A stretch of 64,000 nt of DNA from positions 6,431,001 to 6,495,000 of the forward strand of contig JARFIW010000999.1 of the NCBI GenBank assembly GCA_036346225.1, read 5' to 3'. Positions 2,193-35,984 of the stretch are shown here, piece after piece. Both the position numbers and the translations under genes were made by a program. Position 1 is the stretch's first letter, and every line of letters begins with the position of its first letter. Below the pieces are notes generated by a model. It made no database searches. It worked only from the letters and a program-made list of their open reading frames with translations, and was not told the origin of the DNA. This stretch comes from Platerodrilus igneus (taxonomy: Eukaryota; Arthropoda; Insecta; Coleoptera; Lycidae).

Positions 2193-3245
2193 ATATGGTG
2201 ATTATTATAAACAACTACAGATATTGGTTTTGCAATACTAATGTTAATTGTGCGAAAGGATTTATTTTAAAACTATTGATACCGCAAATGTCTAAGTGTT
2301 GGGGGATACTTGGCAGTCACAGGCTGCTTGAACCTCTTCACATACCACTGAATTTCGGTGAAATAGGGCATAAAATTAGAAAACAATAGAAGGGAATCGA
2401 GTTGTATATCGGCTGTTGTGAGAATTGCAGGGAACGGTGTAGGCTAGCTCAGAACATAAATACTCTAAGGTACAAGTCCAAGAAATTTCAAGATGTAAAA
2501 CCCAATGACGAAAAATTAAGTGCTCTTAAATCTGATGATTATTATAAACAACTGCAGGTGTTGGTTGTGAAATATTATCAACGAATGTTGATTGTGCAAA
2601 AAAATAAATTGGAAAAACTATTAATTTGACAAAGGTTCAGGTGCTGGAAGAACTTGGCAGCCAAAGGCTGCTTACCCCCCTTCACATACCACTGAATATT
2701 AGGGAAATAAGGTATATAACTGTAAAACAATAGAAGGTGACCGAACTGCATCAAATAAGGAAGAACAGCAGCTATGTTCAAAGACAACGAACATAGATAC
2801 AAGAAGAAAACTGTTCAAAGCATAGTGTGGAGCACAGCACAGTACATCTATGAAATAGGGGCAGTAGGAAAAGCAGACAAAAAGAGATAAAAGTCTTCTG
2901 GAATGTTGTGCTTCAGATGTATGAAGATGGTAGCATGGACACACAAAGTTAATAACAAATAGGTTGTAGAAATAGTAGAGGAATAAAGATATCTGTGGAA
3001 AATGAAAAAATAGGAGAAATAGAAGGACAGGATACGTCTAAGGCATTTCTGGGGAATGGCACGAGATATACAACAAGCAGAGATAGGAAAAGAGAGGTAG
3101 AGGTAGATCGAGATCAGACTTTAGCACACAGATAGTGATAGATGCAGACTGTGCAAATTTCAGGGAAATGTGTAAGTTGGTTCAGACTAGGAAACAATGA
3201 GTGTATGCGTCCAACCAGTTCTAGGACTGAAGACCTAATGATGAT
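1680..3245 (+). repeat. Degenerate tandem copies of the RTE 3' coding tail
   Basis: The end of the RT gene (about 1690-2260) is echoed twice downstream. At 2402-2600 the text again reads like ENCRERCRLAQN, followed by DYYKQLQ and the same non-coding words. At 2745-3230 the stretch from the words for 'ttcaaagaccacgaacatag' through a RGRG-like segment and an ANFREMCKL-like segment returns in order. These are decayed duplications of the C-terminal coding module now serving as 3' untranslated DNA. The same three-part tail is present in RTE copy C, so the duplication predates both insertions. Confidence 0.75.
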
Positions 3246-3335
3246 GAAATAGAAATCATGTGTGTAGGCTGTATTTTCATGTTATTATCGCAAGAAAACC
3301 CAAGAAAAACTTGCAATGCTACCTAAATATTAGAG

Positions 3336-5350: not shown

Positions 5351-5957
5351 TAAATAAAAGTGAAATATGAGTTTATAAACTTCTTTGCAGATGACACAGA
5401 GTTAGTGATGTAAAACTTGAAAATGTTATACAAAAAATGAGTACAACATTGCAATAGACTAAGTATACAATTATAGTAGTTAAGGTAATGAAATACCTAG
5501 GATATATTATAGATAATCAGTTATTAACAAGTAAAGGTCACTGTAGGTTTGTATATAAAAAAATATGTACAAAACTATTTTTCTTTTCAGAATTGCTAGA
5601 AATTTATCAACTTACTCAAAATTGTTAATATATGTCAGTTTTACAGCCACATTTTGGGTATTGTAGTACTTTATTAAACTTATTAGACAAGAACAGTATT
5701 AAATCAATACAAAAACTTCAAAATCGTGCTATGCGAGTTATTCTGCAATATACTATATATTCCCTTTGCAACCACAACATAGGGAATTTGCATGTGAAAT
5801 CCAATCTGTCCTTATTAAGGGACGTAAAAAAAAACTACTACTATAATATTTGTGGTTTTTTCTACAATGAAAACAGTTAATCATTGGCGACAGATCCGAA
5901 GGGAATGTTTGGGGCAATTGCTTCATGATGACAGCATACGCATGTTTTCAAAAACAG
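5350..5957 (+). pseudogene. C-terminal part of a Jockey/CR1-type reverse transcriptase
   Basis: The reading begins with FFADDTEL (FADD at 5384-5395), passes VMKYLGYIIDNQLL and reaches YVSVLQPHFGYCSTLL and IKSIQKLQNRAMRVI. These are the usual post-catalytic words of Jockey/CR1-group RTs. The gene stops abruptly at 5957 where the giant palindromic element begins. About 45 bp to the right of that element (20858-20905) could be its continuation, but this short stretch is weak evidence. The exact clade is uncertain. Confidence 0.65.
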
Positions 5958-6203
5958 TAGTAGTGTATTTAGTTACGAATCAGCACCACATTTCCACCAG
6001 CATCCACATTTCCACACACATCTGGACCAAATTTACATGTAAATTCGCACTATAAAGTCTTATTTTTTAAGAATCTCCACCTGCTCTCTCCCTGTGGAGA
6101 TGAATCTCCTCCTTGTGGAATTTTTTACCCCAACCATTTTGATTACATCACACCCGCATTCTTTCCACCCGCGAGATAAATCTTTCTCCACATTTCCACC
6201 CAC

Positions 6204-6880
6204 GAGATAAACCTATCTTGTTTGGTATCAATTAATATTAGAATTTTCTCAGCTACCTGAATCTCTAGGAATTTTTCAGATTGCATCATCCCCAAGGGAG
6301 CTACCCTCATTTTAAGATTTCTTACCTGTAGCGACTTTTGAGCGTTCTTATAAATTTTTTATACATGCGATACATCTTGTTAGTCTAAAATTTTACAGAA
6401 TTCAAATCTGTAAACAGATTTGAAATCGGACCATGCCCTGCAAAGTTATACCCCTTTAAAGTCCTGATCTTCTAAATTTTGCTCTTTGCTTTATAAGCAA
6501 ACCTAACAAATAGTTTTCTTCGTCTGACCAATGCATCTTTTGAGATAAACCTATCTTGTTTGGTATCAATCAATATTAGAATTTTCTCAGCTACCCAAAT
6601 CTCTAGGAATTTTCAGATTGCACCATCCCCAAGGAGCTACCCTAATTTTAAGATTTCTTACCTGTAGCGACTTTTGAGCGTTCTTATAAATTTTCTTAGT
6701 CATGCGATACATCTTGTTAGTCTAAAATTTTACACAGAATTTGAATCTGCAAACAGATTTGAAATCGGACAACGCCCTGCAAAGTTATACTTTAAGCCCT
6801 CAAACCTCTTTAAAAATTTTGCTCGTATATATTTAACTCCATTTTTAAAACCTTTTTCGCTACCCAAGACATATGCTTTA
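6204..6880 (+). repeat. Two tandem units of about 338 bp near the left terminus
   Basis: The stretch starting gagataaacctatcttg at 6204 recurs at 6542 and continues in step through the words for the caatctgtaaacagattt-like segment. The mirror pair is present in the right arm at about 19980-20610. Sub-terminal direct repeats of this kind often bind an element's own replication or transposition protein, but no such role can be shown here. Confidence 0.8.
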
Positions 6881-7293
6881 ACCAAACAGTTAGAGGTAGT
6901 AACACAAAATTAAGAACACAAAATTTTAATAATTTATTTATCCAACTTACAGTTTAATAAACTTATAGAATGCAATTTTACAAAGTATAACATTATTTCC
7001 TGTGCGTAGCCGAAAGTTTAACCTGTAACAAAAGGAAATTAATGTGTTGTTTAAATAGACCTGTAATAAAAGAGATTAATGTAAAAAAGGAGACATGTTT
7101 TCGGTTAATAAGACATATTATCGTTAATCTAACAATATGTTTTACCGTCCAGCGACATCACGTGGAGGTAAACACATTCCAATGTAATGGGTTTTAAATA
7201 GGAAAGTACGCTAAATACAAATCAATTAACAGCAATTAAATATTGCTTACTGACCTACCTTAATTAGGTTGCTGTGCTATTAGGAATGATGTT

Positions 7294-7841
7294 TAAGACT
7301 TCGTACGTATTTTCCGGATTATATGTTGTATTCTTTTTTTATTAAGTAATCGAATAAATCGTTCCTTCTGCTTCCAAAGAAACTCGGACACTCCATTGTC
7401 GACGCTGGCGTTATTTATGCGATAGCTAGCCATACGGTTGTTAAACGCTGTGCTAATCATTTCTACACCATCTTCGTTAGTAGCGGTAACTGATGCATTT
7501 TATGTTTGTTGCTCCTTAAGTGTGCGGTATATGTATTTTTTCCATTTCGAAATCGCATACTTTACACATAATTCGTGGTTGTTTCGTACAAGTCCCTTTA
7601 ACAGCTGGCGGAGCTGAACGTTTAAGGCTTAATGACATACCGTGCTGTTTTTCCTTGTGTCGCAGTAAGTTGTCCATTCTCGTAAAAGCGAAACCGCAAG
7701 TCCCACAGTTTAAGTACTTTGCTGCGGACGGCAACCCTGGGCGATGTTACACACGACATTTGTTCTGGTGCCGTTTGAGAGCATTTTTCCAGGTATAGGA
7801 AGCACCGCAAGGTTGCACTTATAAACGTTTGCAGGTACCAT
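7294..7841 (-). pseudogene. Zinc-finger gene, left-arm copy, frameshifted
   Basis: This is the reverse-complement twin of 18968-19519. It starts at the ATG at 7841-7839 (MVPANVYKC). A C2HC-like finger is spread over two frames. The C2H2 finger CGTCGFAFTRMDNLLRHKEKQH is next in a third frame at about 7700, then the spacer SLSLKRSAPPAVKG and a third Cys pair CKVCDFEMEK. A frameshift after that finger hides the tail (STAFNNR..) until the stop near 7294. It is not translatable as a whole. See the right-arm entry for function and affinity. Confidence 0.65.
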
Positions 7842-8357
7842 TTTAGTACAAAACAAAACCCGCATATAGCACTTTGGTTAAACGAACTAGCTAACAAAGA
7901 GTTTACTCGCATCCGGTTTATGTCCTATAGAATGCAACCGAAGGTTTCGAAGACACCGAACGAGTTGAGGATTCGGCGGAACTAAATGACGTCATCATCG
8001 CTGCTCGTCCAACATTTAGCGCAATGCATGCCCTTCGCTTCGTCGATGGTGAATGCCGTTAGTAGAAACACCGGAAAACTCTTCCATGTTATACGGATCG
8101 CATGCTATTAAAAATCCAAGGTGTAGCACACGCACACAATTGTGCAGTCGTGCAGAAGATGCATGCTACTATAACCAAAAACACTTTAAACCATTACTAA
8201 GAAAATACCAACTTGTTTTACAGGATACTATCAACACATTTAATTTTAAATACTCACGTCATATTTGGAATGGGTGAATATTTTCCAATGAATCAAGCGA
8301 AAGATTACGTAGATACCCATTATTCCATTTTACGACCGTGGTTAATTATAGATTGAA

Positions 8358-8800
8358 TTAATTTGCACGTCGAGCTCTCGTAAACAACAATTTTAAGCAA
8401 CAAGCCGATAACAGCACCCTTCGCCGCGCACGTATTCTTGTAATTGCTAGAAAGTCACCTTTTACTGTTAGACGATGCAAGCACCATTTTATACTTTCTA
8501 TAGCACATCGCACTTTTTCGTCGAAATTAAATTTTGCTTCTAGGCTTTTACACTTTCGCATAGCGGTCGGCCGCACGATTGATTTCAGAACCGGTAAGCC
8601 GATATCCTCCAAATAGAATTGATGCTCGATGTCGTCAATTCCAATTCCCTCGTAAAGGTGAAAAACTCAGTCAATCATCCATTAACTTCGACCCGCTCCT
8701 GTTCGATAATTTACAAACATTTCAAACGACAGGGCCGAGAATTTTAAACCTCCGAGGATCTTTAAGTCGTGATCAATTACATCCGAGCTACGCGTAAACA
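8358..8800 (-). pseudogene. Unrecognised conserved reading in left arm
   Basis: On minus the sequence reads, across frames, LKILGP near 8740, EQERVEV near 8690, a FGGYRLTGSEINRAADR-like segment near 8600-8560, then CAIESIKWCLHRLTVKGDFLAITR. The right arm reproduces these words with different breaks. Shared amino-acid sense between two diverged copies suggests this was once coding. No family was recognised. A shortened third version lies at about 8820-9010 in the same orientation, so the module is tandemly duplicated. Confidence 0.4.
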
Positions 8801-9289
8801 ACATATTTTGCAGCAACTGTAATACATGCTACCTTCTCTGCGCTACTGTATTCTGAGTTGCTTGAAAAGTCAGTCGCCCTTTATGTAGCCGATGCAAGCA
8901 CCATTCATACTTTCTTTATATGTAGCACATCGCGCACTTTTGTCGGATACATTAATTTGTTTATGTAGCCTTTACACTTTCGCTTATTTAAACATCTAAT
9001 ACGATCAATAACCACTTTGATTATTCAACGGAGAACCATACATTCCGCATCGTCTTTTATCCACGACCAGGGCTACCATACACCGACGTATCTTTCCTAC
9101 TATTTGTTAAACAAAACACCGGTATCGCATTGTGGACAAGCAGATGTTGGATGTGCACGAGATGTAACCATATACATTATGTCTAGCTATTTTATTTAGT
9201 CCACGAAAACTATATTTTCTAACACCACACCAATATATTCAGCCATTGATCCGGGCCAGGAATTATTAACATTTCTGCCGCCAGATGAC

Positions 9290-10740
9290 TTGGTGCACTT
9301 CATGGTCAAACCTTTAATTCTTATTGCACGAGACCCCAATTATTCTCGCCCACACAGTACGCTACAAGTCTTGCATGTCTATTTCACCCTTTCGAGCGTA
9401 TATGATCGTTCATTTAAGACCATCGTTATTACTAACACATTCCGAGATTTGACCACTTTAATCCTTTTGCTAACGTACATCTTTTACCCAAATACACCGA
9501 TAGACACGTTAACATTCGTACAAATTCAATCGAGCTGAGGACACAACGTCATATTAAATCTTCACAACTAATTCATTTATGATTGACAGATGTTACTTTG
9601 ATATCTTCTTCCTCGGATAACCACTCTTGCTGCGATGCAAATATATCCATCGCAGCAGACAACTGAACACCTTATCTAGGCGACAGCCGCAACATCAGCT
9701 CACACACTCGCGCATTTGAATCACCACCCATCACAACGCGTCACTGCACCGTTTTCCAAGACATTCTTGCTCACTTTCATTTCAACACGCATTTTATAAC
9801 AAAGAACACTTATCATACTTTAAGTTTATTCCGAATCAAATTTAAAATACGCTTACGATCCTTTAAACCACTAACAACAGCGACAGTCCTTTCAGTGTGA
9901 GCGGCTAATTTCAGTAGCGCAGCTAATGACAACGTTCATTCCTTCAACTATTCAATCTCACTGTTGTCATGATAGATTGCCTCATATGTCTGATTCCGCC
10001 GACAACCATCCATTTGCGTATTGCGCGATGCACCATCGCACACGATTTTCACCCCGATCACAATTTACTCACTACTTAGCAGACGCAGTATACAGAACCA
10101 ATACTACCAACGATAAATTAACTGACCTGCCGAGATGTATAAGACCTAATACCATACAAGAAAACTTTTCAATTCCAGATATTTAAACTAATAAAAATTG
10201 CTTTAAAAAACCTTGTAATAAAAATCTTTCTACAGTTCACATGTGGGAAATCTCATTACTTGACTAACGAAATCTGATAAAACAAGGGAATAAAACAAAA
10301 TTAACTAAAACATTGTAATTATTTAAATTTTGAAGGGTATTTCAAACAAAAGTATCCTATTCTTTCGTATTAATTATTTAAATTTAAACCTCTTATAAAC
10401 TTTTGAACTTTTTTTTTATAATTTTGTTTTTGGCTTTACGACCAAAATATCATCCAAAAAAAACTAATCCCTATTAATTTAAAGGCATTTAACCGTAAAT
10501 TTAACTTTTTGAAACCTTTTTGCACTCTTTTATTTGATAATTTTTGCTTTTTTTAAAATACTTTTAGACTCCTTTTTATCACGGTCACTTCTTTAAAAAC
10601 GCTGATTGAACTAATTTTTCAAATTTACATAACTTGTTATTCTCCAGGAATTATTTTGATTTTCCTCCCTTTTGTACCGTTTTAATCCTTATTTTATTCA
10701 GTATCAAATAGCCCTAATTATTCATTTTTATTTTTGGTTT
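9290..10740 (-). repeat. Diverged duplicate of the inner left-arm module
   Basis: Segments at 9590-9930 echo 11080-11470 in order (TCTTCCTCGATAA-like start, the gcagcagacaact or gcagacagct segment, tttataa..aagaacac, then gacagtcctttca). Further on, tctgattccgccgacaacc near 9988-10006 matches the reverse complement of the Rep-like pseudogene near 15990. The block is therefore a second decayed copy of the inverted Rep-gene 3' end plus its flank. No intact reading frame remains. Confidence 0.5.
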
Positions 10741-11389
10741 AAATTTGTACATAATTTTCTAGGACCCCAAATCTGTAAACAGATTTAAAGACCACCATAC
10801 AAGTTATGCGTTTTAAAGACAATTTGCTCATCTTTATTTAACCCATCTAGAACCTTTTTCCAACCAAGACATATGCTTTAACCAATCCTTTCTAACATCT
10901 AAAACCGACAGTTGTCACCGCGAAACCACGGAGATAACACGTATCCTCTGTCAACCAGGATAAGCCGGAAGGATTTGAAGGTGAGAAGAACTTAAAATTA
11001 TGGAATCTTAAAACAATATATACAAACTAAACAACTATCTTATATCTTTCACGTAGATTGTTGTACTATTAGAATGATGTACCTTTGTCATCTTCCCTCG
11101 ATAAACCAATTTCATATAGCTGCGTATGCAAATCGTATTCTTTACTCCGGATACATACGCAGACAGCTACATCACACCAAAATGATGCTTGACGTAACCG
11201 CCTCTCAGCCAATCCATCCCATGCACCAGCCCACATGCCATCCGCACTGCTGCACCCCCACTGCGTTCCGCCGCATCTTGTGCGACCTATCAGGTAAGTC
11301 AGCCTTTATAAAAAGAACACGTTAATACATTATAAATGTTTATTCGACATTTCAAAATTTAAAAATTTAAGCAGGATCCATTTAAACCA

Positions 11390-13350
11390 TTTTAACAAAC
11401 AGAAGACAGTCCTTTCATGCTTGTTGAGTGGCTTTAATTTTATCTTTTAGCGCAACTTTAACGTACCAGACTACTCCTTTCAATCCTTTTCAACCTAGTT
11501 GACATGTAATCGATCCTTAATACAGATGCTCTATTCCGACCCGATCCGACTCTCGATCTTCATTGCTTTACGCAGCTTTCCCATCGCTAGTCTTTACTTG
11601 CGTCTCTGCGTCAGCAGAATCTACTCGCACTCTGTTGGAATTTCACTTGATCAGTGTAGTGATACCTCAGTTTTGAACATATGAAGTTTATAAATCAATG
11701 ATCTACGAGCTTCTCAGCAACGTACCGACTTCCTCTTGCGTTGTTACGCAATCGATAACGCATTACTGTTATCGTCATTTGTAACACTTTCTAGAATAAC
11801 CTCAGCATACGAGATTTACATCCTTTCAAGAACGTCACATATCAGAGTCTTTCACACGCACACATAGAAACCAGATGTATTCTGTCGTTCCATCGCACAA
11901 ATTACATTCTTACCTCATTTTCTCATCATAGCATTGTTTCACATATCAGTCGTTCACCGTCACACAGCAGTCGCTTGCATCCATTTCTCACTCCAGTTCT
12001 TTCCTTCCGACAGCGATGATACTCTTTCACGTCAACGGACAGCCCATCATGCGTTTCGTGCACGAACGCCAGCGACTTTCAATCTGTCTCGAATCATTTG
12101 ATCGAATCTGGCTGCAGAACCATTCACCTCTATATCGTAAAGCTTTAAGATATTTTCATCTTCCTCATTCCAACATCAGGTAACAGTTGTACCAGCCGCA
12201 GTTACACTTTATCAATCCTCCTTTTCCGACAGCTCGCAATTGCATCCTCGTCACTCACCATTCACGCAGCAGGTTACACGCCAGAGCATTTCTGTCCGAT
12301 ACCATCATTTGCAGTGGCCCGAGCATTGCCTTTAGAGCATAACCATTCATCCAGTTAAACCATTGCCATACCAGCTCGCCACGCAGTTGCACAGTTAATT
12401 GTCCCATTGTCAGAACGCAATGCCGTTTCAACGCAATTGACAACGTCAATCCAGCAGTTGCCGCCGTTATTTAGCCACTGTCCATGCCACTGCAGTTATC
12501 TCCAGATCTGCCGTCAACCATCATTCATTTTCCGTATCATAGCAAAGTTCATGCGTATACATCTTTCATCTTCAACCATGCCACCAGTTATCCACATAAG
12601 ACAATCTCGCTTTCATTACGTCTTACAGTTTCCTATACCAATCGTATTCTTCACTTATTAGGAACAACTAGCTTCGATTTTATTACTCGTTCAGCATAAT
12701 CCTGCTCTCCACTATGTCAACAAAAACGATCCAGGCGACGTTTGACGATCAAAGTACAAATTTCAGTATTTATACCAGAAACATTTTTAAATAAACATCC
12801 TTATGGTACATCTCGCAGCGCAATCAGAAATCATCTGCAGTTTTCGCACGCCGTACACACGCCGTCAATCAAGTGCAACGCCCGTCTAACATAATTCGCA
12901 GCTTAATCTTAATCTATCGCTCAATGATTCGAACCCATTGTATGACGCCCCTAAACGTCTACCTCACAACTTTTGAAATTTAATTTTTCGCGGTCAGCAC
13001 TCTTAGAAACTACTGAGGTATCGCAATTAATTTCAGACCAACAATCTCCAGACACCTTCAATCACGTTTCAGCACATTCAGTCGATACAGCCTCTGACCC
13101 AGCCGACACAACCACGATCACACAACCATGCACACATGACCACAGATGACCACATCGACCAGATACGACATGACGACAGCGTACATCAGACCAGCGATAC
13201 AGCATACACCCACGAGTTTTCATTACATCACGTTACAGTTTTCCACAAACGGTGACATTAATAAGCAGTTAGCCAGCGCCGGGCGCTGGCCAACCTATTA
13301 AATTTTCCTTTAGGTCCAACACACTTGTTTTTAATGGAAAAACTCATTAA
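11390..13350 (-). pseudogene. Heavily decayed inverted copy of the Rep-like gene
   Basis: At 11399-11450 the words acagaagacagtccttt and gagtggctttaattttatc match the reverse complement of 16140-16192, the 3' end of the Rep-like pseudogene. Farther in, cgcagctttcc at about 11571 matches the reverse complement near 15930, and agttgcacagtt near 12385 matches the region around 14745. Between these islands similarity is not obvious by eye. The strand is C-rich and G-poor. I infer the whole stretch is the left-arm counterpart of 13815-16192, eroded by substitutions and small deletions. Confidence 0.45.
13272..13290. other. Perfect GC-rich hairpin near the symmetry axis
   Basis: The 19 bases gccagcgcc-g-ggcgctggc form two perfect 9-bp arms around one base. 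The surrounding DNA is AT-rich, so the hairpin stands out. It lies about 130 bp from the geometric centre of the element. Confidence 0.8.
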
Positions 13351-13403
13351 CAAGCAATTAGTGCTAATGGGTTTTAAAGAGAAAACTCATTAAAAGCAAT
13401 TAG

Positions 13404-13586
13404 GTCATGGGTCATGGTCATATGGTCATGTGGTCATGTGGTCATATGGTCATGTGGTCATATGGTCATATGGTCATGTGGTCATGGCATGTGGTCATAT
13501 GGTCATATGGCCATGGTCATTGGTCTATGGTCATATGGTCATGTGGTCATGTGGTCATTATGGTCATATGGTCATGTGGTTATGTA
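13404..13586 (+). repeat. 9-bp minisatellite (tggtcatat/tggtcatgt)
   Basis: About twenty head-to-tail units of tggtcatat or tggtcatgt, with a few irregular units around 13487-13530. Open frames across it (MVMWSYGHVVIW and similar) are just the translated repeat. The element's midpoint, (5958+20857)/2, is 13407.5, so the array starts at the symmetry axis. Confidence 0.9.
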
Positions 13587-13814
13587 GCAGGAGATTAAAT
13601 TTGTATATAGGACCTACATATATCCGGACATGTGTTGATGATCTGCTAGACCTAGGTCGGATAACAAACAGTTCCTAAACCAGAGAATGTAGCGATATGG
13701 TGGTGTACCGACATATTCGACTATTTTCGGTAATATACGCCCCACTCTGTAGGATACATAAGGAACAGATTTTCGTATTCAATTTAGTATTTGACGGTAG
13801 CTAGAACGGTAAAC

Positions 13815-16192
13815 ATGAGCGTCTCCAAGGTGATTAACGTTTCTCAACTTTGGGAATAAAGTGAAACCGACAAATGAGCGATTTGGATTATGGCTGTTGG
13901 CAGAAAATATGTGCAACAATAATCTGGTGACAGATATTGGTAATATTTGTTATGTCGAAGGCGAAAAGATGCTGACTGGCGGACTACACACACCAATTAC
14001 AGAACCATTTTGTGACAATATAATGTTGGTTAAAATTTGCGACCTTTCTGACGCCGAACAAACATCGGCAAACAAAAGGATGTTTATCCTAAAAAAAGAA
14101 ATTTGTGGTGCATTTAACAGCTATCTACGAAGAAAGTTCAACCGATTTGTTTTCGCTAGGCATGGTGTTAAAGCTAAGCTTCCGTTTTCTCGGAAAGCAG
14201 TAACAAGATAGGCCAGAGAGTAAAAGAAATTATCGGAAAAGAAGACATCGAATGCATTAATAAAAAATTCCAAAATCCTATATGTGTTCCATACAAAGTG
14301 GAACTAGCAGATGTTAAGTTGGAAACTTTATTGGAGGAACTACCAGATATATTAGACGAAGTCGAAAAGATTATTTCTATCTTTTGACATGGATGTAACC
14401 CAAGATTTTGCAGGCATATTTAGCAAGATGGAGATGTGTAATTATTTAACTACAAACCATAACTTTTGCTATAAGGGCGAATACGAAGAAAAGTGTAATA
14501 TTATAGTTGACAACGATAAAACTGCGGGGATTGATTGTTTAACATGGCTAACAACCAATGCAAGAATTAAGATTTACAACAAATTTGTGTGCCAGATAAC
14601 AAGTCCTGGTGTTAATAAACAACTTGGCAATCATATACTAGATTTTTTACGTTGTCCAGATGTACGTTTAAGGGAAACATTTGCGTCTACTTTGGCCAAA
14701 GAACATGGTATTACGCGATTGGAAGCGACAATATACAACTGTGCAATTGGAAGCTATGTCAGTGCGGAACGGGTGTATAAACCCTTAAAAGACTGTTTAA
14801 CCTTATTGGAAGATAGTGTTATACTTCCTAAAGGCACCAATGTACTCGGTACCACTTACCAAAATGTGGAGTAAGCTATCGGACAAGCTACAAAATAGCT
14901 GCTGTTTAGTGTATAATAACCTGCTACAGTACGTGTATTGGGGGAATGGTAATACAAAGAAATTGACGGGCTTGCAAATTAAGTTGTCCAAAAAACCAGA
15001 GGAAAAGGAAAAGGAAAAATTGATAAAGTATGTGCTTTCGGCTTTTAGTTTTAACTATTTACCTGTAAATTATTTGGAGATAGTATAGGAAGATGTCCAA
15101 GATAAAATAAAAATCTTACACAAGTGCTACATTAAAGCAGGTAGTACATATTTTACACAATCTGCCACACCATATTCTACAATTCCAAAAGAAATAGTAA
15201 TTTCGGACTTGGGATTGATAGATACGCCTAACATTCGTCCAGAGGTTGTACGACAACGCGTAAATATTGGTAGTAAACTCTATCCGTTTACGCTAAAGGA
15301 AATTACCCCATTATGTATACCATACGCTGTAAGTGGAAGGAAAAGACAACTGGAATTAGAGGAAATGGATGCAAAAGGCGAAAATTGACTACATGGAAAA
15401 CACTGCGACAATACGCGATCAATACAAAGATGTGTTAGACAAAGAACATCTTATTAGAGAAAATGAGGAAGAATTAAAAGATTATTTTATGTGCCGATGG
15501 ACTGACTTAGATACATCTGGTTTCTACAAGTTGTATGCATTTGCGGTTAGTAAGAAAGACTCTTTAGTTATGTAGGCGTTCTTGCAGAAAAGGATGGTAC
15601 TAAATCCGTATACTTTTTAAAAGGTTATTCTAAAACGTATTTATCAAAATGGCAGATAACAAAGACGAACTAAGGAATGCGGGTTTCGTAATCTTTGCGT
15701 ACACCACACGCAAAGGGGGTCCGTTAAACATTGTATATTTGCCTAGTAAAGAACCTTTCGGATCATTTAAAACCGAGGGTCTTACAACCTATAACAACCA
15801 TATATTCCCAAAAGTGGTGGAATATGCAACTACGCAACGGTGTGTGGAGAAAAGGATTTCCTCCAATACCGACAAGAAGAAGTCGATCAAGCTAACAAGA
15901 TACGTATGCAGGATATAGTGGAAAGCTGCGATTAAAAGATTGTCACAAGCTGCAAGAATTACACGAAGGAATGGATCTGGTTGTCGGCGGAATCAAAGAC
16001 TTTAAATATAGAGGCAAACTTCGGTACATTTTACAATTCGAAAACCTAGACGGTCTCTATGTATCAAACTATTGGTTAGAAAAGGAGATAGAGGACTTGG
16101 GTATCGATTTAAATTTTAAGCTGCGAATAAAATTAGATAAAATTAAAGCCACTCCAAACAAGCATAAAGAAAGGACTGTCTTCTGTGTATAA
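13815..16192 (+). pseudogene. Long Rep-like gene of the giant element, frameshifted
   Basis: I do not recognise a named family. Joined across frames it would be about 780 residues. A start at 13815 (MSVSKVINV) is followed by NERFGLWLLAENM, then at 14389 DVTQDFAG. Later come LTTNARIKIYNKFVC at about 14545, GNHILDF at about 14620, GITRLEATIY at about 14710, TKKLTGLQIKL at about 14955 and LSAFSFNYLPVNYLEI at about 15040. The order D-x-T-x-D, KIYNK, TRLE resembles replication initiators of the filamentous-phage gene II type, which suggests a replication role, but no HUH motif was found. Breaks: frameshifts near 13856, 14200, 14385, 14850, 15375, 15560 and 15915, and a stop at 15086. The damage is modest beside its length, so decay looks recent. 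Confidence 0.55.
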
Positions 16193-16344
16193 CTTTGTAT
16201 TAAAATTAAGTTTAAATGGATCCATGCTTGGCATTAAATATTTTTAAATTTGTTATGTATAATGTCAGAATAAACATTTTATAATAGTATATAACATTGT
16301 TCTTTATTTATAAAAGGCTGTGACGTTACCCTGAAATAGCAGTC

Positions 16345-16465
16345 GCACAGAGAGGGGTGCGCATGGGCAGCACGCATGGGCAGGGGTGTGCACGCGCATG
16401 GGCGCGCATGGGCAAGGGTGTGCATGCGCAGGGGTGCTCATGGGCTGGGATGTGTCTGGGCGTAC
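16345..16465 (+). repeat. G-rich degenerate repeat (gcatgggca-ggggtgtgca units)
   Basis: Units built on gcatgggc and ggggtg alternate across 120 bp. The left arm has only a poor counterpart (about 11200-11275, C-rich). Long open frames here on both strands reflect composition rather than coding. Confidence 0.7.
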
Positions 16466-17212
16466 ACGAGGGAAGCGGATGTTAACAGTCACCAAGCATC
16501 CAATTCTTTATTTGGTGTGGAGTACTTGTCTGCGTATGTATCCGGAGTAAAAGAATACGATTTGCATACGCAGCTTATTAATAAAATTAGTTTATCGAGG
16601 GAAGATGACAAAAGGTACATCATTCCTAATAGTACAACAATCTACGCATGGGGGTGTAAAGATATAAGATAGTTGTTTAGATTTGTATATATTAGTTTTA
16701 AGATTCCATAATTTTTAAGTTCTTCTCCCACCTTCCAAATCCTTCCGGCTTCTATCCTGGTTGACAGAGGATACGTGTTATCTCCACGTGGTATTCGCGG
16801 GACACTGCGGTTTTAGATTTCTAGGGAAACGGTTGGTTAAAGCATATGTCTTGGTTAGCGGAAAAAAAGGGTTCTCAAGATGGTGTTAAATAAAGATGAG
16901 CAAAAATTAGTCTTTAAAACGCATAACTTTGTATGGGTGGTCCTATTTAAAATCTGTTTACAGATTTGGGGTCCCTAGAAAATTTAATATTAGTTGATAC
17001 CTAGCAAAATATATTTATCTTAAAAGAGTGACTACCCGCGTATAATAAATACAATATAACACTTGTCAACAAAAAGTTGTAGAGAAATTAAAGACGTATT
17101 TAATGGGGGTCCAGTATTAGAATTTGTTGGTAGTAATGTTAAGTCCTACTGTATTGTAGGCGAGAAAGATACGATTAAAAAGATTAAAGGGTCTCACGAA
17201 TTGTAGTTATAA

Positions 17213-17300
17213 AACCGAGGGTCTTACAACCTATAACGAGCATATACCTCAAAAGGGGTAGACATGCAACTACGCAGCAGTGCGCGGAGAATAACAATTC
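17213..17300 (+). pseudogene. Duplicate fragment of the Rep-like gene inside the right arm
   Basis: The stretch aaaaccgagggtcttacaac..tgcaactacgcagc matches 15769-15850 at most positions, in the same orientation. It encodes the KTEGLTTYN segment with small deletions. It shows that gene pieces were copied outward into the arm. Confidence 0.75.
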
Positions 17301-17919
17301 TCCAATAAGAAATTAAAGTTTCCATGTACGTAGCACCAGTCATTGGGTAATGGTAGAAATGTTAAACCTATAAAGGCGATTATTAATTGTGGATTAGAAA
17401 ATAGTAGTTTTCGTGGACTAAATAAAATAGCTTAGACTAATTAATGTATATGGTTACATATTCTCGACACATCCACAAACATCTGCTTACGTCCACAATG
17501 GCGATACCGGTAGTTTTTGTTTAACAAATAGTAGGAAAGATACGTCAGGTGTTAGTGCGTGAAGCCCATAGGATCGTTGGAATTAAAAAGAACGATATGG
17601 CGGAATGTATGGTTGTTCCGTTAGAATAATCTAAAGTGGTTAATTGATCGTATTAGATGTTTAAATAAGCGAAAGTGTAAAGGCCTACATAAACAAAAAT
17701 TTAATTATCCGACAAAAGTGCGCGATGTGCTACACTTATAAAGAAAGTATGGAATGGTGCTTTGCATCGGTCCTAACATAAAAAGGGCGACTGACTTTTC
17801 CAAGCAACTACAAGAATAGCAGTAGCGCAGAGAAGGGGTATGCATGTATTATACAGTTGCTGCAAAATATGTTAGTTTACGCATAGCTCGGATGTGTAAT
17901 TGATCACGACTTAAAGATC

Positions 17920-18371
17920 CTCGGAGGTTTAAAAATTCTCGGCCCATTGTCGTTTGAAAATGTTTGTAAATTATCAGAACAGGAGCGGGTCGAAGTTTAA
18001 TGGATGATTGACTGAGTTTTTCTACCTTTACGAGGGAATTGGAAGTTGACAGACATCGAGCATCTAATTCTATTTGGAGGATATCGAGTACTTACCGGTT
18101 CTAGAAATCAATACGTGCGGCCGACCGCTATGCGAAAGTGTAAAAGCCTACAGAAGCAAAATTTAATTATCAGACGAAAAAGTGTGCGATGTGCTATAGA
18201 AAGTATAAAAAATGGTGCTTTGCATCGCTCCTAACAGTAAAAAGGAGAGTGACTTTTTCTAGCAATTACAAGAATAGCAGTAGCGCGGCGAAGGGGTATG
18301 CATGTATTATACAGCGCATTGTTGCTCTAAAATATGTTAGTTTACGAGAAGCTCGAACGTGCACAAATTAA
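17920..18371 (+). pseudogene. Unrecognised conserved reading in right arm
   Basis: Counterpart of 8358-8800. Across frames it reads DLGGLKILGPL, KLSEQERVEV, LTDIEHLILFGGYRVLTGS, then RPTAMRKCKSL or CGRPLCESV depending on frame, and MCYRKYKKWCF. A continuous frame runs from 18189 to the stop at 18369. A shortened second version precedes it at about 17640-17880. No domain was recognised. A nucleic-acid-binding role would only be a guess from its basic composition. Confidence 0.4.
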
Positions 18372-18399
18372 ATTTCAATCTATAATTAACCACGGTCGT

Positions 18400-18967
18400 A
18401 AAAATGGGAAATTAATGGGTAATTTGAATACCGCTAAGCATATACTTTCGCTTGGTGATTCATTTGGAAAAATATTCAAGCCCCCCATTTCCTAAAATAT
18501 GACGTAGAAGTTATTTAAAATTAAATTGTTGTAAGTATCCTGTAGACAACAAGTTGGTATTTTCTTAGTAATGGTTTAAAGTGTTTTTGGTTATAGTAGC
18601 ATTGCATCTTCTACAGCACGACTTGCACACAATTTGTGTGCGTGTGCTACCACCCTTTTGGATTTTTAATATGCATGCGATCCGTATAACATGGAAGATG
18701 TTTTCCGGTGTTTCTACTAACGGCATTCACACCATCGACGAAGCGAAGCAGGTGCATGCATTAGCGCTAAATGTATTGGACGAGCAGCAAGGAATATGAC
18801 ATCATTTAGTTCCCCGCCGAATCCTCAACATCGTTCGGTCGTCTTCGGAAACCTTCGGTATGCATTCTATAAGGAACATAAATCAGGTATGCTCGAGTAA
18901 GCTTTTTAGTTAGCTAGATTACAAGTTTAACCAAAGTGCTATAGTGCGGGTTTTGTTTTGTACTAAA
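18400..18967. other. Right-arm stretch with no clear gene
   Basis: It mirrors 7842-8360 in the left arm. One strand reads CSTRTQLCSRAED on the left (8113-8151), while the other reads IDEAKQVHALALNVL on the right (18753-18800). Neither is supported by both copies in one frame, so I cannot say which, if either, was coding. Confidence 0.4.
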
Positions 18968-19519
18968 ATGGTACCTGCAAACGTTTATAAGTGCAACCTT
19001 GCGGTGCTTCCTATACCTGGAAAATGCTCTCAAACGGCACCAGAACAAATGTCGTAGTGTAACATCGCCCAGGTTAAGCCGTCCGCAGCAAAGTACTTAA
19101 ACTGTGGGACTTGCGGTTTCGCTTTTACGCGAATGGACAACTTACTGCGACACAAGGAAAAACAGCACGGTATGTCATTAAGCCTTAAACGTTCAGCTCC
19201 GCCAGCTGTTAAAGGGTCTTGTACGAAACAACCACGAATTATGTGTACAGTATGCGATTTCGAAATGGAAAAGAATACATATACCGCACACTTAAGGAGC
19301 AACAAACATAAAAATGCATCAGTTACCGCTACTAACGAAGATGGTGTAGAAATGATTAGCACAGCGTTTAACAACCGTATGGCTAGCTATCGCATAAATA
19401 ACGCCAGCGTCGACAATGGAGTGTCCGAGTTTCTTTGGAAGCAGAAGGAACGATTTATTCGATTACTTAATAAAAAAAGAATACAACATATAATCCGGAA
19501 AATACGTACGAAGTCTTAA
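18968..19519 (+). pseudogene. Three-finger protein with STAFNNR tail, right-arm copy
   Basis: Start ATG at 18968 (MVPANVYKC). Finger 1 is C-x2-C-x12-H-x4-C once a 1-base shift near 19000 is allowed. A stop follows at about 19054. From 19060 the frame is open to the stop at 19517: finger 2 CGTCGFAFTRMDNLLRHKEKQH, a basic spacer, finger 3 CTVCDFEMEKNTYTAHLRSNKH, then VEMISTAFNNRMASYRINN and a basic end. From memory, fingers followed by an SAFKNR-like motif are the N-terminal module of long invertebrate Polinton/bidna-like type B polymerase ORFs. Here the polymerase part is absent. Nuclear DNA binding is likely for such fingers, but activity of this copy is doubtful. Confidence 0.6.
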
Positions 19520-20857
19520 ACATCATTCCTAATAGCACAGCAACCTAATTAAGGTAGGTCAGTAAGCAATATTTAATTGCTGTTAATTGATTTGTATTTA
19601 GCGTACTTTCCTATTTAAAACCCATTACATTGGAATGTGTTTACCTCCACGTGATGTCGCTGGACGGTAAAACATATTGTTAGATTAACGATAATATGTC
19701 TTATTAACCGAAAACATGTCTCCTTTTTACATTAATCTCTTTTATTACAGGTCTATTTAAACAACACATTAATTTCCTTTTGTTACAGGTTAAACTTTCG
19801 GCTACGCACAGGAAATAATGTTATACTTTGTAAAATTGCATTCTATAAGTTTATTAAACTGTAAGTTGGATAAATAAATTATTAAAATTTTGTGTTCTTA
19901 ATTTTGTGTTACTACCTCTAACTGTTTGGTTAAAGCATATGTCTTGGGTAGCGAAAAAGGTTTTAAAAAATGGAGTTAAATATATACGAGCAAAATTTTT
20001 TAAAGAGGTTTGAGGGCTTAAAGTATAACTTTGCAGGGCGTTGTCCGATTTCAAATCTGTTTGCAGATTCAAATTCTGTGTAAAATTTTAGACTAACAAG
20101 ATGTATCGCATGACTAAGAAAATTTATAAGAACGCTCAAAAGTCGCTACAGGTAAGAAATCTTAAAATTAGGGTAGCTCCCTTGGGGATGGTGCAATCTG
20201 AAAAATTCCTAGAGATTTGGGTAGCTGAGAAAATTCTAATATTGATTGATACCAAACAAGATAGGTTTATCTCAAAAGATGCATTGGTCAGACGAAGAAA
20301 ACTATTTGTTAGGTTTGCTTATAAAGCAAAGAGCAAAATTTAGAAGATCAGGACTTTAAAGGGGTATAACTTTGCAGGGCATGGTCCGATTTCAAATCTG
20401 TTTACAGATTTGAATTCTGTAAAATTTTAGACTAACAAGATGTATCGCATGTATAAAAAATTTATAAGAACGCTCAAAAGTCGCTACAGGTAAGAAATCT
20501 TAAAATGAGGGTAGCTCCCTTGGGGATGATGCAATCTGAAAAATTCCTAGAGATTCAGGTAGCTGAGAAAATTCTAATATTAATTGATACCAAACAAGAT
20601 AGGTTTATCTCGTGGGTGGAAATGTGGAGAAAGATTTATCTCGCGGGTGGAAAGAATGCGGGTGTGATGTAATCAAAATGGTTGGGGTAAAAAATTCCAC
20701 AAGGAGGAGATTCATCTCCACAGGGAGAGAGCAGGTGGAGATTCTTAAAAAATAAGACTTTATAGTGCGAATTTACATGTAAATTTGGTCCAGATGTGTG
20801 TGGAAATGTGGATGCTGGTGGAAATGTGGTGCTGATTCGTAACTAAATACACTACTA
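19520..20857. other. Outer right arm, non-coding
   Basis: No gene is evident. It contains the 338-bp tandem units and, near the end, repeated ggtggaaatgtgg words (20615-20640, 20800-20830). The outer left arm 5958-7290 is its mirror. Confidence 0.6.
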
Positions 20858-20904
20858 ACAGTAAATTAAAATATTTTAATTTGGAGTGGTTTATAGAATC
20901 ATTT

Positions 20905-21981
20905 CATCCCAAGCTCAAAAATTCACGTTTGTTCGGGCACTGCTCGGCTTTGATAATATTTGGGTTAACTCGATATAAATACAATTTAAAGCAGAACTGA
21001 TCGTTGGCTACTATCCCAGTACATTCCTAGCACTTTATCTATAGTATCAACTGGATTAATTTTAATTACGGCACTCATGGGGCTTTGATTGCCATTTAAA
21101 ACAGATTGTACTGTGCTAGAATTGGACACGAAACCTCGAAGTTCAAATCCAGCCTTTGCGTGCGTATCCCTAACGCAACCCTATGCGTAGCGCTGTCTCC
21201 TTACTGTCAAAACTTGAGACCAAGTCGTCCATATAGTGATTGACTTTTGTTGCTGTCACCACTTCAGACTCGCTACTTGCCGATTCCTCGGCATTCTTAT
21301 TACTAACATGCAAGGCACTGCATGGGGAACAAGAGGCTCCAAACACCATTGACGTCATTACATATGTTTCGACTGGTTTTTCCTTATTTCCGCTCCTCCA
21401 AAGAAATTGTTGCGAATGCAGGTCTTCTTTATTTTAATTTGAAGGAACATTTCTTTTATATCTGCACACAAGGCAATTGCATTTTCACGAAATCTAAACA
21501 ATATGCCATTCAACGGTTGATTTAAATCTGGACCTTTTAATAAAACTGAGTTCAACGAGATTCCGTTTACAGCTGCAGCGGCGTCAAATACGATGCGTAC
21601 CTGCCCTGGCTTATTTGGATTGACCACGGCAAAATGAGGGAGGTGCCAAGTTCTAGGCGTTTTGACAGCTATCTCGTTTGGGCTTAGTTTTCTAGCATAT
21701 CCTTTGGATATGTAGCTAGTCATCACGGTGTTGTATGCTTCGTAAAATAACGGATCTTTTTTCATTTTTAGCTCTATATAACGCAAACGATTAAATGCCA
21801 TTGTGTAGTTATTTGGTAAAGTCAGATCGTCTGCTTTCCATAATAAACCAGATTCAAATATGTCACCAATCCTTTTAGTTGTCAACTTCAATATTTTTCT
21901 CGCTCTGAGTATTTCTTTAGATTCGAGAGGTTCAGCTGACGGCATGGCAACACCAAAATTTTCAGTAGTAAAATACTCTTT
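20905..21981 (-). pseudogene. Bel-Pao RT, N-terminal half, inverted
   Basis: On minus the reading starts at 21981 (EYFTTENFG) and gives DIFESGLLWK, WHLPHFAVVNPNKPGQVRIVF, DAAAAVNGISLNSVLLKGPD and ADIKEMFLQI. A frameshift near 21430 leads to the part with catalytic NHYMDDLV at about 21240. The end, NPVDTIDKVLGMYWDSS near 21030, is repeated on plus at 21985-22120. It would copy the element RNA into DNA in the virus-like particle. It cannot work here because the remainder of the gene points the other way. Confidence 0.85.
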
Positions 21982-21984
21982 TAT

Positions 21985-24723
21985 GATACTATAGATAAAC
22001 TGCTGGGAATGTACTGGGATAGTAGCAATGATCAGTTCTGCTTTAAATTGTATTTATATCGAATTAACCCAAATATTATCAAAGCCCAGCAGTGCCCAGC
22101 CAAACGTGAATTTTTGAACTTGGCGATGTCAATATATGACCCGTTTGGAATGCTGGCCAACCTTACAATTTATGGAAAGGTACTGTTGCAAGAATTGTGG
22201 CGCGTAGGTGTCAAATGGGATGAAATGATTCCTAATGAAATTTATATGAAGGTCAGACAGTTTGTAAGAGTTTTACAAAAGGTAAAGGACTTCCACTGGA
22301 ATCGCCATTATTCAAGTTATATAGAACAACCTGACACAATTCTCGAGTTCCATGTTTTTGTCAATGCGAGTGAGATTGCTTTCGCCGCAGTCGCCTACTG
22401 GCGTGTCCTATGGCAAGATATTATTGAAGTTTGTTTTATTGCGGGGAAAACTAAGTGTGCACCACTTCTTGTCTATTCCTCGTTTAGAACTTCAAGCGGC
22501 GTTATTAGGTACACGTTTGCAAAATGCAATTGTAGAAAATCACAATGTGCAGCCAAAAAGGTCTTACTTCTGGAGCGACTCGAAAACGGTAGTTTCCTAA
22601 ATAAAATCAGACCATCGACAATTTAAAACATTCGTAGCACTTCGAGTAGGTGAAATATTAGAATCAACGCATGAGAATGACTAGAATTGGTTGCCGACAA
22701 CATTGAACGTGGCCGATGTGGGAACTCGTACTAAGTACCTGATAAATTATGAAAGGAACAACACATGGTTAATGGGACCAGAGTTCTTAAAACAAACTGA
22801 GGAGTTCTGGCCCAGATTTGTTGACAAACAAATACCTATTGAATGTTTTGAAGAGAAACGTCAATGTCATGTGATTTGTTTAGATACGGTTATTATGGAT
22901 TTTACTAAATATTTCAATTTTCTTCGTTTAGTACGAACAGTTGCTTGGGTAATGAGACCTCTTCGTGTTATTCGAGAAGCTAGTAGAGATGGGAGCCTAA
23001 AAAATACAATACCCTCTCTATCCGTAGAAGAGATTCAACTCGCTGAAAAAATATTATGTAAGTTAGCCCAGCGTCAAGCTTTCAGTAGCGAAATTGATGA
23101 TCTAAAAGCTAATCGGTCAGTTTCAAGTGGCAGCAGCATATTTACACTTAACCCTATGCTAAACGAAGAAGGTGTACTTTGTGCGTATGGGAGAACTGAT
23201 TATGCTTCGGCATTACCAGAGTCTGCACGTCGACCAGCCATACTCCCTAAGAACCACGCTTTCACCGATTTAGTCGCCTCATGGTATCACATGACATAAC
23301 TCACAATTAGGTAGCGGTCTGGCATGTTAGCAGCGATTCGTTGCTTAAGCCTTACCATAACATATAATTTAACACTTTTTGTTTTTTGAAGCGGATAACC
23401 AGGTAATATTTCTTTATAAATGGGAATCATGTAAACATGTTAGAGTTTTTTAAAAACCATCAGGTTGCTAATATCTATGTAGAGTCAGCTGGATAGGAAA
23501 AAGATAGAAGGATATAGGAAGACCTAGATCAAACTATATTACTCTAATTATTAGAAATTTAGGTTGTGAAGGGTATGTAAAGCTTTTTAGATTAGCACAG
23601 AATAGAAAAGAAGTTAGAGCTGCGTCAAACCGACCTTAAGTAAGGTCGAAAACAAAATGATGATGAATGGTATCACAATAGATTTCACCATATGAACAAA
23701 GAATTAGTGATTAATGAAATAAGAAGAAAGTACTGGATAGTGCATGTCAGAGTAGTTGTGAGACGAAATAAAGCAAACTGCATTTAGTGCAAAATTAGAA
23801 AGGCTACACCAAAACCTCCTATGATGGGGCAGTTACCAGCAGATCGTTTAACACCATTTATAAAACCATTTACTTACACTGGTCTAGATTATTTTGGTTC
23901 GTTGCAAGTTGCTATAGGAAGGAGAAGAAAAGAGGTGGACCGCATTATTTACATTCATGACAATTCGCGCAGTACATATAGAGCTAGCCACTAATCTATC
24001 CACAGATGTCTGCATATTGTGCATAAGAAATTTTGTTAATCATTGCGGGGTCCCTATCAAGATACGCTCAGATATAGGCACTAATTTTGTAGGTTCTGAT
24101 GGCGAGCTACATAAGGTTGAAGATATATTCGACTTGGCCTGCATTCAGAACGAACTTTCAGTTCGGAATATAAAATTGGAATTTAACTGTCCAGCCAACC
24201 CCAGCAGTGGTGGATGTTGAGAAAGGCTTGTCCAGTCGATCAAAAAGGTACTTGCGATAGTGCTGAAGGAAGTAGCTCCGCAGGTCGAGACTTTACGCAG
24301 TCTTTTGATAGAAGCTGAAAACATTATTAATAGCCGTCCACTTACTCACATAACCACTTTTTGCTGGGTATAACAAATTCGACTCAAACTCCAGGATCAG
24401 AGACAGCATCTAGTGGCCGAAAGCAATACCAGATAAGTCAGCAACTAAAGAACTGCTTTTGACGTCGCTGGATACGCGAATATTTGCCAACTCTTACAAA
24501 GCAGACTAAATGGTTTTTACCCCAAAAACCGTTTAAAGAAGGCGACCTGGTAATAATTTGTGATGAGGCCTCTCCCAGAAGTCAGTGGCGGAAAGGCGTG
24601 ATTGTAAATACTTTTCCTGCTAAAGATGGGCACATACATATAGTTGAAGTTAGGACGAGCAGCGGTGTTTTAAAACGTCCTGAGTCAAAATTAGCCAAAC
24701 TGGATGTGATAAGTAAAGCTTGA
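21985..24723 (+). pseudogene. Bel-Pao pol: RT end, RNase H, integrase, C-terminal domain
   Basis: It begins inside the RT (DTIDKLLGMYWDSS) and continues with SIYDPFGMLANLTIYGK. An RNase H-like part follows with IPRLELQAALLG and WSDSKTVV at about 22570, and the WLPTTLNVADVGT boundary at 22690. Integrase has an HHCC-like segment split by an insertion at 23292-23677, then YTGLDYFG, RSDIGTNFVG and ERLVQSIKKVL (about 23890-24250), consistent with D, D and E. The C-terminal QWRKGVIVNTFP-like domain ends at the stop at 24721. Breaks include frameshifts near 22440, 22600 and 23960 and stops near 23785, 24218 and 24370. Confidence 0.85.
23292..23677 (+). mobile_element. 5'-truncated RTE 3' end with 11-bp target duplication
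   Basis: The insert reads, with stops, like the RTE protein tail (GRPRSNY..., LGCEGYVKLFRLAQNRKE) and ends in gatgatga. It is flanked by atggtatcaca at 23281-23291 and 23667-23677. Removing the insert and one repeat restores the integrase frame (WYHN). This is a small target-primed insertion. Its sequence is diverged from the full RTE copies here, so it belongs to a related subfamily. Confidence 0.85.
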
Positions 24724-25397: not shown

Positions 25398-25668
25398 ATG
25401 AAATAAATTAATAGAATGACTCAAAATCTCCCCATGTGTCAATTTAATAAAATAAACAAATTATTATGGTACAAAAAGTTTCGCTCGCTACATGTTTCAG
25501 GCTTATAATTCTTAGCCCATCTTCAGGCGCTTGAAAGTATCGAAGAAATATTTTTATATATGAAGTACAAAATAACGATTAGGATTTATAAATCGAACAT
25601 GAGGATAGTTTTAATCTTTGTGTATATGTTTGTTTAATGTGTTATGATGTCTATTTTTTGAATTTACA
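25398..25668 (-). repeat. Left pLTR of the Penelope-like element
   Basis: It starts atgaaataaattaatag and is the inverted partner of 27972-28289. It contains a hammerhead-like motif on minus. Confidence 0.9.
25479..25536 (-). ncRNA. Hammerhead-ribozyme-like motif, left pLTR
   Basis: On minus it reads the same core as the right copy (CTGAAGA, a stem II with loop, GAAAC, then GTA). The flanks gcgc and gcg can pair to close stem I, with a second pairing tttc/gaaa beyond an internal loop. See the right copy for details. Confidence 0.6.
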
Positions 25669-25699
25669 AAATCACAATTACACAAAATCAAGAACTCAG

Positions 25700-34969: not shown

Positions 34970-35984
34970 TCATCATCATCATTAGGTTTACAGTTCTACA
35001 ACTGATTGGACGTATACCCTCATTGTTTCCTAGTCTGAACCAACCTACACATTTCCCTGAAATTTATTTGCACAGTCTGCATCTATCACTATCTGTGTGC
35101 TAAAGTCTGATCTCGGTCTACCTCTACCTCTCTTTTCCTATCTCTGCTTGTAGTATATTCCGTACTATTCCCCAGAAATGCCTTAGAACGTATCCTGTCC
35201 TATTTCTCCTATTTTTCGTTTACCACAGATATCTTTATTCCTCTACCATTTCTACAACCTATTTGTTATTAACTTTGTCTGTCCATACTACCATCTTCAT
35301 ACATCTAAAGCACAACATTCTAAAAGGTTTCTATCTCTTTCTATCTGCTTTTCCTACTGCCCCTATTTCATAGATGTACTGTGCCGTGCTCCACACTATG
35401 CTTTGGAGAGTTTTCTTCTTGTATCTATGTTCGTGGTCTTTGAACATAGCTGCTGTTCTTTCTTGTTTGATGCAGTTCGGTCACCTTCTATTGTTTTACA
35501 GTTATATACCTTATTTCCCCGATATTCAGTGGTATATGAAGGGGATAAGCAGCCTTTGACTGCCAAGTTCCCCCAGCACCTGAACCTTTGTCGAATTAAT
35601 AGTTTTTCCAATTTATCCTTTTGCACAATCAACATTAGTTGAAAATATTTCACAACCAACACCTGTAGTTGTTTATAATAATCATCAGATTTAAGAGCAT
35701 TTATTTTTTCGTCATTGGGTTTTACATCTTGAAACTGGTTGGACTTGTACCTCAGCTTATTTATATTCTGAGCTAGCCTACACCGTTCCCTGCAATTCTC
35801 ACAACAGCCGATATACAACTCGATTCCCTTCTATTGTTTTCTAATTATATGCCCTATTTCACAGAGATTCGTTGGTATGTGAAGGGGTTTAAGCAGCATG
35901 TGGCTGCCAAGGTTCCCCTAACACTTAGACATTTGCCATATTAATAGTTTTCAAACAAATCCTTTCGTAGAATTAACATTAGTT
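34970..35984 (-). repeat. RTE copy C 3' region, decayed duplicates of the coding tail
   Basis: On minus, 35818-35620 reads GCCENCRERCRLAQN and DYYKQLQ, a copy of the true tail at 36180-35985. The region 35460-34990 repeats the earlier TTNIDTRRK to NFREMC order in broken form. It corresponds block for block to 2402-3240 in copy A. Confidence 0.75.

Follow-up and report, generated by a model that had tools for sequence, protein, structure and literature searches.

A head-to-head palindromic element of probable Polinton kinship and its family in the genome of Platerodrilus igneus

The stretch of Platerodrilus igneus DNA analysed here (64,000 nucleotides, hereafter named the window; G000:C957:6431001-6495000) contains a large palindromic element, the two halves of which mirror each other. 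A BLAST-type self-alignment of the window revealed inverted arms at 5958–9468 and 17177–20857 with 90.8% identity over 3,726 columns, and a second inverted block at 10753–11445 and 16135–16984 with 77% identity. The outermost 656 bp of the arms were identical, and their outer 1.58 kb contained no substitutions and seven one-base indel events, six of which were homopolymer-length changes by their printed context. The terminal inverted repeats are long, with AGTAGTGTA...TACACTACT ends, and near the axis the GC skew flips its sign, as mirrored halves require. Comparison with other copies from the genome (2.71 Gb in 1,723 contigs was searched; C-codes denote contigs and L-codes the DNA pieces read) set the bounds of the element at 5959–20856. 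The mirrored inverted palindrome described by the original prediction, which was made from the letters alone, was thus upheld, and its details were corrected: the bounds of 5958..20857, the axis near 13400, which lies instead at a GC-rich hairpin (Table 1), and the 4-bp duplication acag, which the window letters alone also allow but which comparison with the other copies showed to be the 6-bp AACAGT.

Apart from its repeats (Table 1; a further GC-rich tandem repeat with 16- and 32-bp units lies at 16359–16454 in the right arm), the element carries two kinds of gene. The zinc-finger genes predicted earlier are present, a C2H2 gene near each terminus, with Pfam scores under the curated cut-offs. 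The other is an orphan gene, which in the copy on C1275 forms a single uninterrupted frame of 613 codons (L043:1515-3353) that includes the region earlier called Rep-like. The 613-codon protein had no match in Pfam, PHROGs or PDB, and shorter pieces gave weak matches only (best E ~0.02–0.05, far under the cut-offs, in Pfam, PHROGs, NCBIfam and PDB). No relative was found in phages (one 172-aa piece searched) or in IMG/VR, and two single-sequence structure models had a mean pLDDT of 39.8 and 33.3. Searches of the four databases therefore gave no support to the identification as Rep, and the structure models spoke neither for nor against it. Its status as a pseudogene was likewise not supported, since broken frames in a misread copy are no guide to it; the gene is open in C1275. 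Among the element open reading frame (ORF) pieces scanned, there was no match to PF03175 (PolB) or to rve (retroviral-type integrase, for which the genome was not searched), none by Pfam to a capsid, a packaging ATPase or an NS1/Rep protein that combines an HUH nuclease and an SF3 helicase, and none to parvoviral NS1, helicase, protelomerase or transposase.

Table 1. Features of the palindromic element and its target site in the window
Feature	Position	Strand	Remarks
Target-site duplication AACAGT, left copy	5953..5958	+	Read directly; length of 6 bp established from other copies
Left arm, reverse complement of right arm	5959..13269	-	Outer 1.58 kb clean, bases missing further in
Zinc-finger gene, mirror copy	7296..7746	-	In left arm
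GC-rich hairpin at axis	~13270..13291	.	Damaged in window; perfect form in C969 and C537
Right arm, better-read half	13292..20856	+	97.6% to clean arm of C1107 over 7,650 columns
ATGGTCAT tandem array, 21.6 copies	13414..13580	+	Next to axis; longer in C1463
Orphan protein-coding sequence, in open-frame pieces	13834..16192	+	From ~14360 corresponds to single 613-codon frame of C1275
Direct duplication, 17666–17896 and 18129–18361	17666..18361	+	81% identity; self-alignment
C2H2 zinc-finger gene, ORF piece 19058–19519	18920..19519	+	Pfam scores under curated cut-offs; homologue in C918 Polinton-type locus
Subterminal direct repeats of ~250 bp, 20023–20273 and 20364–20611	20023..20611	+	94% identity; within DNA common to PolB loci
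Target-site duplication AACAGT, right copy	20857..20862	+	Read directly

The palindrome of the window is real and fuller than it appears. Inward of about 7.5–7.75 kb, approximately 7–40% of the bases per 300 are missing from the left arm: between 7537 and 9160, 193 bases were missing on the left against four on the right with 18 substitutions, and between 10753 and 12666 the numbers were 826 against 40 with 149 substitutions. The core, which looks unmirrored, is mirrored as well, since 11446–13300 aligned with the reverse complement of 13601–16135 at a score of 734 compared with a dinucleotide-shuffle mean of 372 (S.D. 15.6; z = 23), and on the same strand z was 0.5. In sub-windows of 300 bases the mirror signal reached ~12,645 and was absent beyond, leaving the ~650 left-arm bases nearest the axis outside the demonstrated mirroring. 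Divergence of the arms through evolution was considered and rejected, as the palindrome showed 167 substitutions and 486 indel events compared with 252 and 26 in five further pairs of repeats within the window; two of these control pairs (25395/27971 and 30901/31868) were also 44–48 bases short on one side, in one and six events respectively. Spealman et al. (2020; PMC7229812) describe nanopore reads that, past an inversion junction, contain missed and wrong bases, the low-quality part being shorter than the part preceding it. The pattern of loss suggests that the same fault, triggered by a real palindrome, affected the left half here, in an assembly that we take to be nanopore-based. In C1107 and C1706 it was the right half that was short of bases (e.g. 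by 175 as compared with 0, and by 514 as compared with 15), C209 showed a less one-sided loss in its right half (365 against 138, and 110 against 88), and C1527 showed no clear one-sided loss (one block had 26 against 73, and another gave z = 2.4). Given that the left half represents the right half misread, the arm divergence and the broken frames of the window are unusable as evolutionary evidence. A fold-back chimaera standing in place of the true left half was also considered and dropped, other copies (C969, C537, C927 and C371) being clean in both arms. A left-only stretch at 9400–10150 resembles, in damaged form, 10805–11726 of the same arm and the reverse complement of 16477–17200.

The element belongs to a large family. 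Its 301-bp terminus was found in at least 40 places of the genome at 97–100% identity (2,305 first-look candidates), and we examined the window and 12 other copies from this match list; the copy on C371 was reached via the orphan gene. Twelve of the 13 were head-to-head, by BLAST in the window, C1107, C12, C673, C927, C1638, C1463, C1527, C969 and C537, over a short stretch in C209, and by permissive alignment only in C1706. The exception, C927b, was unmirrored in the fetched DNA, and its second terminus was not found between 1472500 and 1495099. A full-length arm of ~7.58 kb comprises the terminus, the subterminal repeats, the zinc-finger gene and the orphan gene, in line with the head-to-head dimer of one unit, then put at ~7.4 kb, that had been proposed. 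The nine copies with both ends read ranged from 6,752 bp (C927) to 18,466 bp (C969), and in eight of them the ends AGTAGTG...CACTACT were flanked by a perfect 6-bp target duplication: AACAGT in the window, CAAATA in C1107, CTAATC in C12, TCAACA in C673, ATTGAA in C927, CCGGCC in C1638, ACTAAC in C537 and ATTATT in C969. Such duplications outside AGT...ACT ends show the trace of retroviral-type (DDE) integration. Thus the many copies with common ends and target duplications anticipated for the element exist.

Comparison of arm with arm gave 11 mismatches and 45 gap openings over 6,469 columns in C969, one mismatch over 2,299 in C537, three over 2,692 in C1463, five over 1,476 and three over 1,515 in C12, 24 over 3,861 in C673, 28 over 2,661 in C1638, and ten and seven over 3,192 and 2,662 in C371; C927 aligned to itself over 6,794 columns with 46 mismatches, each counted twice. 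As both arms of C969, C537, C927 and C371 are clean, the palindrome is not accounted for by assembly error. Neither of the outcomes named at the outset as speaking against the element, the lack of any other copy and an assembly artefact, was found. A 1.07-kb comparison showed mostly 0–0.9% substitutions within two main subfamilies and ~5% between them, with higher distances for the C673 right arm, C1638, C1527 and the window left arm, and by these distances the family looks young. The orphan gene had at least 150 matches in the genome at 83–100% identity (14,176 first-look candidates), with frames of up to 656 codons among the matches listed. By hand count, the 150 listed contained eight opposite-strand pairs within 20 kb (C1032, C782, C1107, C1154, C1598, C433, C371 and C1209, of which only C371 was read), all of them divergent and none convergent, and one same-strand pair, inside C969, compared with a chance expectation of 0.16 close pairs of either orientation.

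Copies in which the inner end of the monomer is retained turn at a single GC-rich hairpin. C969 and C537 have a perfect form of it, which in C969 folds into a stem of 32 bp and a loop of 4 nt, and the stem is perfect also in C371. A fuzzy search detected it in six of the nine terminus-search copies that reach the axis (the window, C1107, C1638, C969, C1706 and C537), a damaged form was recognised by eye in C12, C1527 and C209, and the hairpin was likewise present at the turn in C371 and C1275. In C537, C969 and C371 DNA has been lost on one side, starting close to the hairpin. An extra turn in C969, near the window equivalent of 15.77 kb, has a short T-run overlap of the kind that a template switch would leave. 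The C969 copy as a whole (L022/L023, G000:C969:1416193-1434658; 18.5 kb) has three turns, two at the hairpin and this one. C927b contains a similar hairpin without mirrored arms in the fetched DNA, showing that the hairpin can exist apart from the palindrome.

PolB genes occur in the same genome, with at least 115 matches to PF03175 (87 of 6,269 candidates scored), and three of the four PolB loci returned (L030, L031 and L032, not L029) share the subterminal DNA of the element at 80–93% identity. A locus on C918 (L033/L034, G000:C918:1428500-1446400) contains genes for PolB (7.7e-32), a zinc-finger protein, a PLA2-like protein (7.3e-11) and a double-jelly-roll capsid (3.4e-51), together with one that matches Psq and A32-like (ATPase-like) sequences (9.2e-10 and 2.7e-5); judged by these genes, it is a Polinton-type provirus. 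A second PolB fragment lies there at L033:2548-3537. The zinc-finger protein of the C918 locus is homologous to that of the element (1.75e-28), and the orphan protein had no match at this locus. At the limit of similarity to the element the C918 sequence reads AGTAGACC, an apparent terminus of which the other end was not found. On C1441 the subterminal DNA is followed by PolB, half of the axis hairpin, and then stretches like the zinc-finger region and 13.6–14.0 kb of the element. C927b begins with the family terminus and the zinc-finger region and continues with homologues of two C918 genes, the ATPase-like gene at 70% DNA identity over 209 columns and another gene at 1.9e-9 and 5e-11. On the strength of the shared terminus, subterminal DNA, zinc-finger gene and hairpin, the palindromes and the Polinton-type loci of this genome therefore form one kindred. 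The virus-like replicon of the original prediction accordingly retained its virus-like kin, which changed to Polinton-type elements of the same genome. That the element is at once a palindrome, mobile and related to Polintons is in our view very probable.

We consider it reasonably likely that the element is a non-autonomous Polinton/Maverick derivative, one of a young, high-copy family in which the arms of one unit are joined head to head at the hairpin. Among the genes of Polintons are those for a protein-primed PolB and an integrase resembling the retroviral one (PMC6431247), and the target duplications left by this integrase are given as typically 6 bp in PMC12220804 and as 5–6 bp in PMC8547959. 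In a Polinton-like parent under protein-primed strand-displacement replication, a 3′ end may fold back at an internal hairpin and copy its own strand to the terminus, which would yield a molecule bearing the same end twice and thus two working ends; PolB and integrase of relatives would then act in trans for its replication and insertion. We regard the chances that such a copy-back step was the origin as evenly balanced. Later changes are seen in the copies that lost DNA beside the hairpin or turn elsewhere.

Several observations weigh against this proposal. Three of the 12 palindromes (C927, C673 and C1463) turn away from the hairpin, and C1463 lacks a target duplication, its right host flank mirroring the left over 928 bp at 99.5% (this copy was read within G000:C1463:5357000-5376960; L018, L019 and L006). 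The PolB loci end, at a putative edge, somewhat differently from the element, and a complete parent with the AGTAGTGTA end, PolB and integrase was not found, the genome not having been searched for integrase. Furthermore, the comparison of sister arms did not resolve their kinship, and no replication intermediate was seen.

The chief rival, which we hold to be unlikely though worth serious attention, is a hairpin-ended linear replicon, the monomer of which would have one open end recognised by an integrase and one closed hairpin end, with turn-around replication giving a dimer that integrates, in a parvovirus- or poxvirus-like manner. The fixed hairpin at the axis, with a perfect stem in C969, C537 and C371, and the single turn point common to full-length copies would fit such a replicon; the unmirrored hairpin of C927b, the half hairpin of C1441, the three palindromes that turn elsewhere, and the absence, among the scanned pieces, of any match to a parvoviral NS1, a helicase or a protelomerase would not. 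The two origins differ in what they expect, hairpin-ended monomers in the one case and open palindromic linear DNA in the case of copy-back. A giant foldback transposon with a mechanism unrelated to Polintons, using the orphan protein as its own transposase, is improbable: the very high copy number of the orphan gene, its long frames and the absence of a match to any known family agree with it, but the 6-bp duplications and AGT...ACT ends suit the Polinton integrase class, and the PolB/capsid loci have the zinc-finger gene, the subterminal repeats and the hairpin in common with the element. Palindromisation of ordinary elements in the chromosome, by hairpin-initiated breakage and inverted duplication, could hold for C1463 alone with its mirrored host flank, and is otherwise largely refuted and very improbable, because differing host flanks with a perfect 6-bp duplication in eight of nine copies indicate that the palindrome was already present at insertion. 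An assembly or fold-back read artefact, suggested by the badly read halves (left in the window, right in C1107, C1706 and C209), is scarcely credible given the clean arms described above, the divergent orphan-gene pairs, and target duplications with two different flanks, which a folded read cannot yield.

Polinton/Maverick elements (polintoviruses, adintoviruses) have AG...CT ends. Like them, the present element has long inverted repeats at its termini, AGT...ACT ends and target duplications of 6 bp, and it is linked to them in descent by what it has in common with the Polinton-type loci of the genome, namely subterminal DNA, the zinc-finger gene and one half of the hairpin; it differs in having two identical arms rather than two differing halves, and its scanned pieces gave no match to PolB, integrase, ATPase or capsid, whereas PolB, capsid and ATPase-like genes are present in its relatives. 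Viruses produce copy-back (snap-back) defective genomes, and protein-primed viruses palindromic ones, in which one end has been copied to both and which depend on a helper; unlike these, the element is inherited through the germ line in many copies and turns recurrently at a defined hairpin. Hairpin-ended replicons such as parvoviruses also form head-to-head units joined at a hairpin, but the element has no parvoviral gene match and is integrated with a 6-bp duplication. Foldback/Galileo transposons consist mostly of inverted repeat and belong to the P superfamily, with a P-type transposase and longer target duplications, in contrast with the 6-bp duplication, the Polinton kinship and the lack of a transposase match in the pieces scanned here. 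Bidnaviruses, small DNA replicons that likewise have a polintovirus link, are thought to have acquired PolB and terminal repeats from a polintovirus, the repeats forming no hairpins (PMC4061559), and differ from the element, the scanned pieces of which matched neither PolB nor a parvovirus-type gene. A palindromic Polinton family was not found in the literature searched, which included parts of PMC4046053, PMC12721341 and PMC4061559; this coverage is partial and does not establish absence from print.

Elsewhere in the window, 1–3247 and 34973–38426 form an inverted pair at 91–92% identity with differences that are mostly substitutions, one ORF of which we take to resemble a reverse transcriptase. 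The 532 bp at 31320–31851 match their own reverse complement at 89% and are perhaps another foldback repeat. The ORFs at 21358–23299 and 25648–27824 presumably resemble BEL/Pao and Penelope-type retroelements.

Our results have a practical consequence for long-read assemblies, in which long palindromes can hide when a base-short arm is read by repeat and gene finders as unique junk and pseudogenes; such loss in one arm also makes the distance between the arms uninformative on age. The sequence-defined, recurrent hairpin makes the turn directly testable in the DNA of the organism. It is possible, and we suggest it tentatively, that this animal genome is host to satellite replicons of Polinton-type viruses in very large numbers, which dropped the polymerase, integrase and capsid genes, kept the orphan protein and the hairpin turn, and spread as head-to-head palindromes. 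If so, this would be a lifestyle between virus, satellite and transposon not met in the literature searched, and Polinton-type elements would shed transmissible palindromic satellites, akin to viral copy-back defective genomes, that can reach very high numbers.

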